DNA from: Mycetohabitans sp. B8
GTDB lineage: Bacteria > Pseudomonadota > Gammaproteobacteria > Burkholderiales > Burkholderiaceae
NCBI RefSeq assembly: GCF_021991875.1
Contig: NZ_JAHLKR010000016.1
Coordinates: 62,001-126,000 of the forward strand
Length of the DNA stretch: 64,000 bases
Reading direction: 5' to 3'
Part shown: one piece after another, positions 43,959-50,308 of the stretch
Layout: the number at the start of each line of letters is the position of its first letter
Position numbering within the stretch: position 1 is the first letter of the stretch
Position numbers and translations under genes: made by a program
Notes under the pieces: generated by a model
The model's input: the letters and a program-made list of their open reading frames with translations, nothing else
Database searches by the model: none
Told to the model about the DNA's origin: nothing

Positions 43959-46298
43959 TCAGCGCAGCTTGAGCTTGGCGAACGCGGCTGCCATCGCGCC
44001 TTGCGGCTCCGTCTCCCGGTTGCGTCTGCCGTGACCCTGACCGCCGTGTCCACCGGCATCCCGGTCACGCGATGCCGCGCTGCCCGCGCCCGTTCCACCG
44101 CCTGCCGCGGCGTCGTCTGACAGGCGCATCGTCAGCGAGATGCGCTGCCGCTTCAGGTCTACCTCGAGCACCTTGACGGTGACGACCTGGCCCGCCTTGA
44201 CGACCTCGTGCGGGTCCTTCACGAACTTCGTTGACATCGCGGACACGTGCACGAGGCCGTCCTGGTGCACGCCGATATCGATGAACGCGCCGAAGGCTGT
44301 GACGTTGGTCACCACCCCTTCGAGAATCATCCCGGGCGACAGGTCGGCAAGCGTCTCGACGCCTTCGCGGAACATTGCAGTCTTGAACTCGGGCCGTGGG
44401 TCGCGCCCCGGCTTTTCAAGCTCGCCCAAGATATCGCGTACGGTGGGCAAGCCAAAGCGTTCGTCGACGAACTCGGTTGCGGTCAGCTTCGACAGCACGT
44501 CACGATTACCCATCACATCGGACACCGACTTGTTGATCTTCGCGAGGATGCGCTCGACCACTGGATAGGCCTCTGGATGGACTGCCGAGCGGTCCAGCGG
44601 GTTCTCACCATGGTTGATGCGCAGGAAGCCGGCCGCCTGCTCAAAGGTCTTGTCGCCCAGGCGCGGCACCTTTTTCAAGTGCGCTCGGGACGGGAATGGC
44701 CCATGGGTGTCACGATACTCGACGATGTTGCGTGCGAGTGTCGCATTCAGGCCCGATACCCGGGCAAGCAGCGCAATGGATGCGGTGTTCGCGTCGACGC
44801 CCACCGCGTTGACGCAATCCTCGACGACTGCATCCAGCGTGCGTGCCAATTCTCGCTGATTCACGTCATGTTGGTATTGGCCCACACCAATCGCCTTCGG
44901 CTCGATTTTCACCAGCTCGGCGAGCGGATCCTGTAGGCGGCGCGCGATCGAAACCGCGCCGCGCAACGATACGTCCAGTTCGGGAAATTCCTTCGCCGCC
45001 AGTTCCGACGCCGAGTACACCGATGCGCCCGCCTCGGAGACGACGATTTTTTGCAGTTTCAGTTCCGGATGTCGTGCGATCAACTCGCTGGCCAGCTTGT
45101 CAGTTTCGCGCGATGCGGTACCGTTGCCGATGCTGATCAACTCGGCCTGCGTCGCTTGGGCGAGCCGTGCGAGCCGCGCCAGCGACCCGTCCCAATCGCG
45201 GCGTGGTTCATGCGGATAAATCGTATCGGTGGCTAGCAGTTTGCCGGTGCGGTCGACTACTGCGACCTTGACGCCGGTGCGCAGCCCCGGGTCCAACCCG
45301 ATCACCGCCCTGGGGCCAGCCGGCGCGGCCAGCAATAGATCCTTTAAGTTTCGTGCAAACACATTGATCGCCTCGTGCTCGGCGCGCTCGCGCAACTGGG
45401 TCAGCAGGTCGTTTTCCAGATGCGGTTGCACCTTCACGCGCCAGCACCAGCGGCACACGTCGCCGAGCCACTTGTCGGCTGGCCGCCCTTGATTGGCAAT
45501 GCCGAAGTGGCGCGCGATCATCGCTTCGCCAGGATGCGGCACTTGTGCATCGAGTTCCTCGCCCAGGCCGAGCTTGACGAACAGTACGCCGGCATTGCGG
45601 CCCCGGAACAGCGCGAGCGCGCGGTGCGATGGCACCGTCTTGATCGTCTCCGTGTAATTGTAGTAATCGCGGAATTTCTCGCCTTCCTCTTTTTCTTTGC
45701 CCTCGACGACCGTGGAGATCACTACGCCTTGGTTCCACAGATAGTCGCGCAGCCGGCCCAGCAACTCGGCGGTTTCGCCGAACTGCTCGGACAGGATGTC
45801 GCGCGCGCCGTCCAGCGCCGCCTTAATGTTGGCAATGCCTTTGTCGGCATCGACAAAGCGGGCGGCTTGCGCTTGCGGATCGTGCGTCGGATCCGCGAGC
45901 AACGCATCCGCCAAAGGCTGCAACCCCGCTTCACGCGCGATTTGCGCACGGGTGCGACGCTTAGGCTTGTACGGCAGATACAGATCCTCAAGCGTTTGTT
46001 TCGCGTCGGCAGCTAGGATCGCGGTGCGCAATTCATCAGTCAACTTGCCCTGCTCATCAATGCTTTGCAGGATCGCCGCGCGCCGATCCTCGAGCTCGCG
46101 CAGGTACAGTAGCCGCTCCTCGAGCAAGCGCAGTTGCGTGTCGTCTAAGTTGCCGGTGACTTCCTTACGGTAGCGCGCGATGAACGGAACCGTTGATCCT
46201 TCGTCAAGCAGTTGTACGGCGGCGGCGACCTGCCGTGGCTGAACATTCAACTCGGTGGCGATGCGCTGTACGATCTTCAGTGCTACGTTGTCCGTCAT
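43959..46298 (-). CDS. tex: Tex-family RNA-binding transcription accessory protein
   Basis: This 779-residue protein is built as an N-terminal helical Tex domain ([20 protein letters not shown]), a YqgF/RNase H-like domain ([20 protein letters not shown]), helix-hairpin-helix repeats ([20 protein letters not shown]) and an S1 RNA-binding domain ([20 protein letters not shown]). It is the bacterial relative of eukaryotic Spt6 and affects transcription and virulence gene expression. The ATG at 46298 is the family start. The C-terminal tail after S1 is Gly/Arg/Asp-rich. It is divergent from the helical secreted-type protein. Confidence 0.96.
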
Positions 46299-46390: not shown

Positions 46391-47422
46391 ATGCATGACC
46401 GCCTACCGACGTCCTCTCCTGCACCGCGCCAGCGCGCTCGCGAATCGATGCTGCCCAGCGGGTCCCTATCTTCGCGACCGCACCGTCACGCGGCGGCGGT
46501 CACCCTGACTGCACGACGCGAGCGGGCGTGGCTGCTGGCTGGATGGCTGCTTGCGTGCGTGGCCAGCATTGTGCCGGCTGCGCCGTTGTATGCGCAGGCC
46601 ATGATGCTGCCGATGTCCGACGCCGGCGATGGCGTGGTTGCGACGACAGGCGTCGATGCGGAGGCGTCGGCGATGCCGGTTATCGCGCCACAGGAGCCTT
46701 CGGCACCCGTGCGTGTGATGGATGACGACCGCGCGGGCGCACGCGCAGCGGTTGCCGGCAGCCCCGACGCGCAGGCCGCGGATTCGGAGGGCGCCGATGG
46801 GCGAGCGCGACAGGCATCGTTCGGCGCCCGACAGGCGCAGCTCGATCGCCGCAGTGAGCTAAACCGGTACGAGTATGGTGTCGCGAGACACAACTGTTAC
46901 AGCGCCATTCTGGTTAACCATTGTCTGGAGAAGGCGCGCGACCGAATGATTGCGAACAAGATGCGGATTCGCGACGACCAAAATGCGCTCGACAACGAGC
47001 GCCGGGCCGCGCATGCGCGACAACGTGACGAGCAGGCTGCGCTCAAGCGCGACGCGCACGCGCGCGAGGCGCCTCAACGCGCGGCGCGTGAGCGCGAGAA
47101 CGAGCAGTCGTACGAAGAGAAGCAGCGCCAGCATGCGATCGATGAGGCGCGACGTAACGCGCAAGTGCCACAACGCGACGCGAACCAGCGCGCGTACGAT
47201 CAGAAGCAGCTCGACTACCAACGCAAGCTTGAGCAGGCGCGGCAGCAGGCTGCTCAGGATGCGCAGCAGCGGGCAGACAATGCGCGCAAGTTCGAGCAGA
47301 AGCAGCAGCGCGCGGCGCAGCATGCGCAGGACGTACGCGAGCGCCAGGCCCGCGCCGCGCGCAAGCAGCGCGCTTCCACGCCGGACGCCGCGTCGGCAGC
47401 CTCCGGTACGGGCGGACAGTAG
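46391..47422 (+). CDS. Secreted-type charged helical protein of unknown function
   Basis: I do not recognise a named family. The 343-residue product has a basic N-terminus, a hydrophobic segment at residues 47-68 ([20 protein letters not shown]) with a likely signal cleavage after LYAQA, then a low-complexity linker. Residues 155-205 hold a compact motif with two cysteines, C169 and C178 ([20 protein letters not shown]), spaced to form a disulfide. The remaining 140 residues are almost only Arg, Gln, Ala, Glu, Asp and Lys, with very few large hydrophobics, and are predicted to be one long charged helix. An ATG at 46448 is a possible shorter start. The layout fits a periplasmic, envelope-associated protein. 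Confidence 0.75.
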
Positions 47423-47554
47423 GGCCGCAGACCCGGTTTCCGGACAAATGCCCAAGCCCTGAGTCAACCGCAGTAGAATCATGGTAAAGCGACCTCATAT
47501 CGGGTGCCGGCGTCACAGGTGCGACGGCTCCAGATCAATCCGGAGGGAAAGGGC

Positions 47555-47770
47555 ATGCAGCATGCATACGACGCTGACACGGTGGCAATCCAAAGCCAGA
47601 TCGCTCGACTTCAGGATGAGCATCATGACTTGGACTGCCTGGTCAATCGGGTGGCTGGCGTGCCCGGCATGAGCGACCTCGAGCTGCAGCGGCTAAAAAA
47701 GCGCAAGCTGAAGGTCAAGGACACGATTACGCTGTTGCAGTTACAGTTGGGGCCAGATACCCATCATTGA
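47555..47770 (+). CDS. YdcH-family (DUF465) small helical protein
   Basis: This 71-residue cytosolic protein has the DUF465 pattern: an N-terminal helix (IARLQDEHHDLDCLVNRV), a turn, and LELQRLKKRKLKVKDTITLL as a second basic helix. Members form antiparallel helical hairpins. Their function is unknown. The ATG at 47555 follows CGGAGGGA; upstream codons in the same frame have no similarity. It lies 93 bp before the DinG-type helicase gene. Confidence 0.9.
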   Translation: MQHAYDADTVAIQSQIARLQDEHHDLDCLVNRVAGVPGMSDLELQRLKKRKLKVKDTITLLQLQLGPDTHH

Positions 47771-47863: not shown

Positions 47864-50308
47864 TTGACATCTACGCCTGAATTGCGTCCGCGCGAACCGG
47901 ATAGTTCGCTCTCGGTCGATGGCGCGCCGGCCGCGCCGACGCTGACCTCGGACGGACTCACCGTTGCTTTGCGCCGGCTCGCCGAACTCGACGCGATCTT
48001 CGCCGCGGACGGTGTGTTGGCCCATCATATCGATGGCTATCGGCCGCGCGACGCGCAACTGCGCATGGCGCAAGCGGTCGCGGCGGCGATCGATGCGACG
48101 GGTCGCCTGCCGGATGCTGGCGCGCTTGCGCTGGCCCATACCGAACGTCCATCGCGGCGGCTCAGCGCGCCGCGCGCCGCGCTGCACGGTGAGCCGGGCG
48201 CCGCGCCTGCCGGCGCTGCGTCGTGCGACGCGGATGCGACGGCGGGCGACAATACACTGATTGTCGAAGCCGGTACCGGCACCGGTAAGACCTTCGCGTA
48301 TCTAGTGCCCGCGATGCTGTGGGGGGGCAAGGTGATCGTGTCCACCGGCACTAAGCATTTGCAGGACCAGCTGTTCCAGCGCGACATTCCGACGGTGCGC
48401 GACGCGCTCGCGGTCCCCATATCGATCGCGATGCTCAAGGGACGCGCGAACTATCTGTGTCACTATTACCTGGCGCGCACCGCCGACAACGGCCGGTTGC
48501 CGTCGCGGCAGGACGCCGCGCATTTACAGGAAATCATGCGTTTTGCGAAGGTCACGCGCAGTGGTGACAAGGCCGAGTTGGCTAGCGTGCCGGAAAACGC
48601 GCCAGTGTGGTCACTGGTGACATCCACACGCGACAATTGCCTGTCGCAGGAGTGCCCGCATTACAAAGACTGCTTTGTGATGCAGGCGCGTCGCGATGCG
48701 CAGCAGGCTGATCTCGTGGTTGTCAATCACCATCTGTTCTTTGCCGACATCATGCTGCGCGACACCGGCATGGCCGAGTTGCTGCCCAGCGCGAACACGA
48801 TCATCTTCGACGAGGCGCACCAACTGCCCGAGACCGCGACACTGTTTTTTGGCGAGACGTTGTCTACCGCGCAACTGCTCGAACTGGCCCGCGACAGCGT
48901 CGCCGAAGGCCTGCTCAACGCGCGCGATGCAGTCGAATGGACGCGGCTTGGCGCGACGCTGGAGCGCGCCGCGCGCGACGTCAGGCTCGCGTTTAAGCAG
49001 GATTCGCTACGCATTTCGCAGTCGCAACTCGGCAACGAGCATCCGCTGTTTGACGCGCTCGTCGGCGTCGAAGCGGCGCTCGACGAATTGATCGCGTCGC
49101 TCGCGCAGCAGGCCGAACGCGCGGAGCCGCTGGCCAACTGCTTGCGGCGTGCCCGAGAACTGCGGCAAATGCTCGACGGCTGGTGTGGGCCGGACAACGC
49201 GCCGGCGCACACCGCGCCATCCGCGGGCTCGCGGCGGGGCGCGCCATTGGGCGCAGCGCGGCAACGCGGCGATGCCGCATCGACATCAAAATCGGCATCG
49301 GCATCTACATCAGGATCTGCGCTGGCATCGACATCGACATCGGCATCTACATCAAGATCCGCTTCGGGATCGGTGCAGCCAGACGACGCAGGCCAATTCG
49401 GCGACGAGAGGGTGTGCTGGGTGGAGGTATTTTCCCACACGGTACAATTGCATCAGACACCATTGTCCGTCGCTCCGATATTCGCGAAGCAACGCGCGGG
49501 CGCGCCTCGCGCATGGATCTTCACGTCCGCGACGTTGTCCGTGCGGGGCGATTTTAACCACTACGCTACGCAAATGGGCCTGAACGCGCGTCGCTCGATG
49601 ACGCTGCCCAGCCCGTTCGACTATCCGAATCAGGCATTGCTGTACGTGCCGCGCAATTTGCCGCAACCGTCATCGCCGTATTTCACGGATGCGGTGTTTG
49701 ACGCCGCGCTGCCGGCGATCGAGGCGTCCGGCGGCGGTGTGTTCGTGCTATGCACGACACTGCGGGCGGTCGATCGGATGGCCGCGCGTTTGCGCGACGC
49801 GATCCTCGCGCGGGGATGGCCGTATCCGTTGCTGGTGCAAGGCGAGGCCAGCCGTACCGAGTTGCTGGACCGTTTCCGTCAATACGGCAACGCGATCCTG
49901 GTGGGCAGCCAAAGCTTCTGGGAGGGCGTGGACGTGCGTGGCGACGCGTTGTCGCTGGTGGTCATCGACAAGCTGCCGTTTGCGCCGCCCGACGATCCGG
50001 TGCTGGCCGCGCGGATGGATGCATTGACGCGCAAGGGGCTGAGCCCGTTCGCGGTGCACCAGCTGCCGCAGGCCGTGATCACGCTGAAGCAGGGGGCCGG
50101 CAGGCTGATCCGTGCCGAAACCGATCGCGGTGTGCTGATGATCTGCGATCCGCGCCTGGTCGACAAGCCGTACGGCAAGCGCATTTGGCAAAGCCTGCCC
50201 CCGTTCCGACGCACCCGTGAGATCGATGCGGTGCAAACCTTTTTTACCGACTCGGTGTCAGCGGATCTGCCCGTCGATTTACACCACCCAGTGTCCCAGT
50301 TGGCGTGA
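47864..50308 (+). CDS. DinG/YoaA-type XPD-like DNA helicase
   Basis: This 814-residue iron-sulfur superfamily 2 helicase has Walker A EAGTGTGKT at 135-143, the cluster cysteines C199, C259, C264 and C270 (DNCLSQECPHYKDC), the DEAH box at 316-319 and the late motifs VGSQSFWEGVDVRGD and LKQGAGRLIR. E. coli YoaA acts in repair of stalled forks; DinG clears R-loops. Two low-complexity insertions are unusual: residues about 82-128 before Walker A, and about 450-512, where a DNA repeat encodes a Ser/Thr/Ala tract. The start is a TTG at 47864. There is no LexA box that I can recognise upstream. Confidence 0.93.
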   Translation: MTSTPELRPREPDSSLSVDGAPAAPTLTSDGLTVALRRLAELDAIFAADGVLAHHIDGYRPRDAQLRMAQAVAAAIDATGRLPDAGALALAHTERPSRRLSAPRAALHGEPGAAPAGAASCDADATAGDNTLIVEAGTGTGKTFAYLVPAMLWGGKVIVSTGTKHLQDQLFQRDIPTVRDALAVPISIAMLKGRANYLCHYYLARTADNGRLPSRQDAAHLQEIMRFAKVTRSGDKAELASVPENAPVWSLVTSTRDNCLSQECPHYKDCFVMQARRDAQQADLVVVNHHLFFADIMLRDTGMAELLPSANTIIFDEAHQLPETATLFFGETLSTAQLLELARDSVAEGLLNARDAVEWTRLGATLERAARDVRLAFKQDSLRISQSQLGNEHPLFDALVGVEAALDELIASLAQQAERAEPLANCLRRARELRQMLDGWCGPDNAPAHTAPSAGSRRGAPLGAARQRGDAASTSKSASASTSGSALASTSTSASTSRSASGSVQPDDAGQFGDERVCWVEVFSHTVQLHQTPLSVAPIFAKQRAGAPRAWIFTSATLSVRGDFNHYATQMGLNARRSMTLPSPFDYPNQALLYVPRNLPQPSSPYFTDAVFDAALPAIEASGGGVFVLCTTLRAVDRMAARLRDAILARGWPYPLLVQGEASRTELLDRFRQYGNAILVGSQSFWEGVDVRGDALSLVVIDKLPFAPPDDPVLAARMDALTRKGLSPFAVHQLPQAVITLKQGAGRLIRAETDRGVLMICDPRLVDKPYGKRIWQSLPPFRRTREIDAVQTFFTDSVSADLPVDLHHPVSQLA
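49281..49374 (+). repeat. Hexamer-based repeat tract inside the helicase gene
   Basis: The tract is built from RRCATC-type hexamers. Two 30-bp copies, 49291-49320 and 49333-49362, match at 27 of 30 positions and are 42 bp apart. All units keep the frame and encode alternating Ser with Ala or Thr. Repeat number could vary between strains without frameshift because the unit is 6 bp. Confidence 0.8.

Follow-up and report, generated by a model that had tools for sequence, protein, structure and literature searches.

A Largely Single-Copy Protein Family of Burkholderiales With a Predicted Cysteine-Tipped Helical Hairpin

Results

The Gene and Its Genomic Neighborhood

The gene described here occupies positions 46391..47422 of the forward strand of the window, that is, of the whole 64,000-nucleotide stretch of DNA that was analyzed. 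The host genome comprises 3.28 Mb in 78 contigs, and its named relative is Mycetohabitans endofungorum (Burkholderiaceae, Burkholderiales). The coordinates given in a preliminary description of this DNA agree with the list of open reading frames. The product has 343 aa and belongs to an unnamed, apparently exported family of Burkholderiales. Translation could start at 46391 or at an ATG at 46448.

All parts of the protein are given on the forward strand. The signal region (residues 1-70, 46391..46600) has a long n-region, a hydrophobic core at approximately residues 47-64 and the sequence AQA at residues 68-70, which we read as a Sec signal peptide. It is followed by a linker of low complexity (residues 71-143, 46601..46819). 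The 59 residues 68-126 (46592-46768) are present in the window protein and in genome G007 and are missing from the proteins of M. endofungorum (L002) and G003, while the remainder of the protein aligns closely. The head begins with a putative first helix assigned from covariation (residues 144-168, 46820..46894; positions 3-27 of the head model), continues with the proposed tip, C169-YSAILVNH-C178 (46895..46924), which contains two invariant cysteines and has the lowest helix propensity of the head, and ends with a putative second helix assigned from conservation and covariation (residues 179-227, 46925..47071), in which R205 (47003-47005) is invariant. The DNA encoding the C-x8-C motif (46895-46927) occurs once in the window; these cysteines are the pair, with eight residues between them, that the preliminary description had singled out. 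The charged tail (residues 228-343, 47072..47419) is variable and has prolines at 228 and 260, 32 residues apart.

A single-sequence search with the window protein matched 26 of 61 genomes, its own included. Four genomes of the genus were compared in four pairs, and dN/dS was 0.09-0.23 for the head and 0.21-0.28 for the tail; the signal region evolved faster than both (0.53-0.94), and for the linker three of the pairs gave 0.31, 0.74 and 1.53, the fourth yielding none. Because of these matches and the dN/dS of head and tail, the open reading frame is a real gene under purifying selection and more than a chance reading frame.

Upstream and divergent lies tex (43959..46298, reverse strand; named as in the preliminary description), with 92 bases between the two starts. 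Synteny with tex had been proposed as a check, and indeed, of the 24 genomes with a match in the window's taxonomic family, 19 have tex within 1.5 kb of the gene. Downstream on the forward strand are a gene for a DUF465 protein (PF04325, E 5e-14; 47504..47770) and a gene whose product we take to be a DinG-type helicase (47864..50308). We analyzed gene order in 41 longer loci, which were drawn from the matches and not at random and include the window and L002. Downstream, 29 of these loci have a dinG relative in the same orientation and 18 have a DUF465 gene; upstream, 18 have a gene for an lpd-type dehydrogenase and 17 have zapE (PF03969), with 15 of the zapE genes ending no more than 327 bases, and 12 no more than 74 bases, from the reading frame (tblastn). 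Locus L092 holds lpd, zapE, tex, the gene, DUF465 and dinG together and thus joins the tex arrangement, frequent in the window's taxonomic family, with the zapE arrangement seen in other families. In three loci from genomes of 1.7-2.1 Mb (L081-L083), the gene is flanked by kup and a RadA-like gene and does not adjoin dinG. Another gene, on the opposite strand and beside DUF465 or dinG, was present downstream in 14 of the 41 loci (L063, L064, L066, L068-L071, L073, L074, L078-L080, L089, and L096), but no such neighbor was seen in the window; one representative had a sub-threshold SpoIIE-type match in Pfam (E 0.005).

Distribution of the Family and Searches for a Known Name

Three alignments were used: A1, built from the 26 members; A2, from 24 of these (L005, which almost duplicates other sequences, and L012, whose tail is broken, were omitted); and A4, from 53 heads, which adds 29 of 41 further heads, the other 12 being mostly represented already. 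A search with the cysteine-bearing head had been suggested in the preliminary description, and with A4 it recovered the protein family from 385 of the 398 genomes that represent the window's taxonomic family, its own included, with one match noted per matching genome and a single exception. Among the 13 genomes lacking a match are five of 0.2-0.5 Mb, three with a completeness of 60-83%, and three of four genomes of 1.1-1.2 Mb from the same genus. In G005 (1.2 Mb, same genus), whose three sister genomes of 1.1-1.2 Mb gave no family match with A4, the head is kept and similarity stops at approximately residue 212 of the window protein (L012 and L098). Two other taxonomic families had matches in 104 of 107 and 79 of 110 genomes, again nearly always one per genome, and an order-wide draw of 300 genomes had 55 with A4 and 39 with the narrower A2. 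No match fell beyond the order either in a sample of the phylum searched with A4 (10 of 249 genomes, all from the same order) or in a sample of the class searched with A2 (1 of 185, the window's own genome). Judged by these searches, this is a mostly single-copy family of one large order, Burkholderiales.

The preliminary description had offered no family name, and the libraries that we searched supplied none. The window protein had no membership in Pfam or NCBIfam, with sub-threshold DUF3817-type matches only; the 26 members gave stray weak matches in these two libraries, each in one or two members; six more distant members had no match in Pfam and four members none in PHROGs. Profile searches of the PDB returned four matches with A2, the best at E 0.14, and none at E 1 with A4. 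Neither a description of the family, in titles and the openings of abstracts, nor an experiment on any member was found among the literature matches listed. The term undescribed, as applied to this family, thus refers to the literature and family libraries searched.

Several known groups resemble the family in part. LprI/DUF1311 proteins (PF07007) are exported, helical and cysteine-bearing, a likeness also apparent from the LprI sequences compared; hhalign gave a probability of 1.5% (15 relatives), PF07007 was absent from the window genome and from the Pfam scans of members, and we rejected this assignment. DUF1090/YqjC (PF06476) sequences are also exported; they are small, contain two cysteines and end in a charged region, but in L359 the cysteines are separated by 36 residues, compared to 8 here; this candidate was also rejected (hhalign probability 0.2%, from only 5 relatives; PF06476 absent from the window genome). 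TolA extends a long, polar helical region through the periplasm, to which the predicted tail may be compared, and 2 of the 26 members matched TIGR02794 weakly (best E 8e-4). As the window protein had no match to the full-length TolA model, membership was rejected.

Predicted Export

All 237 members scored, out of 242, have a signal-like hydrophobic stretch ahead of the head, a result obtained on whole stop-to-stop reading frames with our own hydrophobicity rule and not with a trained predictor. By that rule the proteins carry the N-terminal signal segment of Sec-exported proteins, in agreement with the signal segment noted in the preliminary description. A lipobox was matched in 43 of the 237, although the pattern is loose and this number includes false positives; L043, L044 and L049 read convincingly as lipoproteins. 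These sequences suggest a periplasmic location, apparently with a lipid anchor in some lineages.

Covariation Within the Conserved Head

The family reading frame was found in 328 of 359 loci, the rest having no complete match and including some LprI loci, and this yielded 242 distinct heads. Model positions C28, C37 and R64 (C169, C178 and R205 of the window protein) are invariant in all 242, with the caveat that the head profile was built with these residues and some selection for them is therefore built in. Phenylalanine occupies position 32 in 96% of the heads, where the window protein has isoleucine, and the head consensus is C-Y-x-K-F-F-V-N-x-C-L-x-x-A-R.

Mean-field covariation analysis of the head (Neff 188) revealed strong i+3/i+4 coupling, which corresponds to helical periodicity, together with an antidiagonal band at i+j = 65-66 ± 5 that held 19 of the top 40 long-range pairs when 4.7-4.8 were expected (invariant columns excluded). 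None of 1000 column permutations reached 19 pairs in the band (the largest number was 15), though such permutations do not model the relatedness of the sequences. The band was centered at 65-67 in 30 of 30 bootstraps, the two cysteines summing to 65 (28+37), and two other pseudocount settings gave 16 and 19 pairs within it. Of the top 20 inter-helix pairs, 17 fell within 6 of sum 65 (8.9 expected) and 11 had separations that are multiples of 7. Residues were swapped in a correlated manner at positions 24/44, with E/D24-R44 in 43 sequences versus K24-E44 in 9, and at positions 14/56, with R14-E56 in 126 versus S/T14-Q56 in 50. With the window's taxonomic family removed, the remaining 177 sequences still showed the band (16 of 40 pairs, reached by 1 of 300 permutations). 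The 65 sequences of that family by themselves, a set of little power (Neff 28), gave no band, the best count being 9 at sum 85, which 190 of 300 permutations reached; the hairpin proposed below is consequently carried to the window protein by homology. A few strong pairs (47-67, 46-71, and 40-77), together with 51-68, lie on a weak second band near sum 117, which the hairpin does not explain and which may possibly represent contact between the second helices of two chains.

The segment between the cysteines (model positions 29-36) has poor helix propensity in comparison with random sets of eight columns (p 0.0001), and when the head is scanned in 8-residue windows, the eight with the poorest propensity begin at positions 27-34. 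At position 35, 219 of the 242 heads have N, T or S. This speaks for a predicted turn at the cysteine pair. Because the antiparallel helical covariation is centered on that pair, a hairpin closed by a disulfide at its tip is the most likely arrangement, and we consider the hairpin architecture of the head itself to be quite probable.

An antiparallel homodimer would predict the same antidiagonal band. Here each head would be a straight helix, and two chains would lie head to tail about the point midway between the cysteines, linked by two intermolecular C169-C178' disulfides; in a straight helix, residues nine apart are on opposite faces, so that an intrachain C169-C178 bond would be impossible. 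Such a dimer would employ both invariant cysteines, and it agrees with the straight helices that AlphaFold returned from a two-sequence input, both for the whole protein (one helix over residues 129-329, pLDDT approximately 82-97 over most of it, pTM 0.28) and for the head alone (a continuous helix, mean pLDDT 93), models that count against a hairpin. The poor helix propensity between the cysteines and the preference for N, T or S at position 35 argue against it. Proline or glycine also occurs within the segment, at position 30 in 27 and at position 36 in 11 of the 242 heads, but this is a weak point, as these residues are about equally frequent at positions 22 (25 heads), 39 (29), 51 (31) and 54 (32). 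On balance, we regard the dimer as unlikely.

The Charged Tail

The preliminary description centered on about 140 residues of nearly pure R, Q, A, E, D and K, a composition taken to fit a rigid single α-helix long enough to cross the periplasm. A charged tail is certainly present, although "nearly pure" is a little strong: these six residues make up 80% of residues 187-329 (143 residues) and 81% of the best 140-residue window, and the same stretch contains 7 asparagines and 14 large hydrophobic residues as well as prolines 228 and 260. The net pairing of charges at i+3/i+4 exceeds that of shuffled tails (z 2.8; z 1.4 and 1.1 for attractive pairs alone), which fits a mostly helical tail, and hydrophobic periodicity was no better than in shuffles (648 of 1000). 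Covariation across 76 tails (Neff 40) carried a helical i+3/i+4 signal, but no long-range band stood out convincingly (7 of 50 pairs at sums 201-206 compared to 2.7 expected, a count made without permutations). Single α-helix domains are rich in E and K/R and form a long uninterrupted helix with i,i+4 salt bridges. The tail is similarly charged, poor in hydrophobic residues and predicted to be helical, and differs in being rich in A, R and Q and in having internal prolines.

The length of the tail varies considerably. A median of 156 residues follows the second cysteine (236 members scored), yet 18 of 239 members nearly lack the tail, having fewer than 60 residues after this cysteine, which would roughly suffice for the second helix. 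In the set of 236, the 18 members with only 41-55 residues there retain the head. Among 76 tails picked by the pattern [AG][PQ]QR, and within that choice, a spacing of exactly 32 residues between PQR-type motifs occurred 51 times; in 58 tails the first motif lay 50 residues past the second cysteine. A helix of 20 nm corresponds to 133 residues, and proline-free runs of at least this length were found in only 7 of the 211 long members, those that continue for 100 residues or more past the second cysteine, and in none of the 60 long members of the window's taxonomic family, the longest run in the window protein being 70; runs free of both proline and glycine reached this length in none of the 211. 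Given the short tails and the scarcity of long proline-free runs, the family does not appear to conserve a stiff periplasm-spanning helix. A single helix of this kind, in which the cysteines would be minor features, thus seems improbable in spite of the AlphaFold helix over residues 129-329 and the charge pairing, the more so as prolines recur 32 residues apart in the tail and the invariant residues are located in the head. These alignments indicate that the conserved unit is the cysteine-bearing head and that the tail is a variable add-on.

Discussion

Taken together, the data favor, with reasonable though not high confidence, a periplasmic protein whose working part would be an 80-residue antiparallel helical hairpin with a disulfide-closed tip. 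Its periplasmic location, the disulfide, the hairpin in preference to a dimer, and its role make up the reading that we infer to be most likely. A metal- or redox-active head, in which H-x-C and H-C at the tip would bind metal or the cysteines would cycle, is very improbable, as the histidines of the H-x-C-x7-H-C sequence of the window protein and several close relatives are not conserved across the family (H occupies position 26 in 25% of heads and position 36 in 23%).

In the favored hairpin, the N-terminal signal, apparently a lipid anchor in some lineages, would place the protein in the periplasm, where two helices of approximately 25 residues would pack as a short coiled coil. The invariant cysteines at the two ends of the turn (consensus C-Y-x-K-F-F-V-N-x-C) would form a disulfide closing the tip, and the hairpin might then offer this conserved hydrophobic tip to a partner, acting as a docking or scaffold factor. 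We propose this docking role only tentatively. The polar tail could serve as a spacer or weak binder that is lengthened or dropped according to lineage.

Periplasmic adaptors of the AcrA/MacA/HlyD type present the conserved tip of an exported α-helical hairpin to a partner, as the protein described here might do. The comparison concerns how such proteins work, the hairpin here being predicted from covariation. The present family differs in having cysteines at the proposed tip and no transporter gene among its named neighbors, and the lipoyl or barrel domains of HlyD/AcrA had no Pfam match in the 26 members (E 0.1) or in six distant members.

In several families zapE immediately precedes the gene, and our guess from this order is that the partner might take part in the processes that ZapE serves, either division or those concerning inner-membrane proteins. 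ZapE is described in PMC7314023 as an inner-membrane ATPase linked to FtsZ-dependent division in bacteria. The connection comes from gene order, which may simply be old, and we consider it doubtful. It is similarly doubtful that the protein is an order-wide core periplasmic factor that assists ZapE either in division or in the turnover of inner-membrane proteins, with a disulfide-tipped docking hairpin and a tail spacer tuned by lineage.

The gene order next to zapE nevertheless provides a first guess at a pathway. A gene that is near-universal in its taxonomic family, occurs in most of the genomes sampled from two others and is nearly always single likely does something basic in the envelope. 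None of the libraries searched has a model for this family, and its head profile, tip motif and naturally short versions make the gene directly testable.
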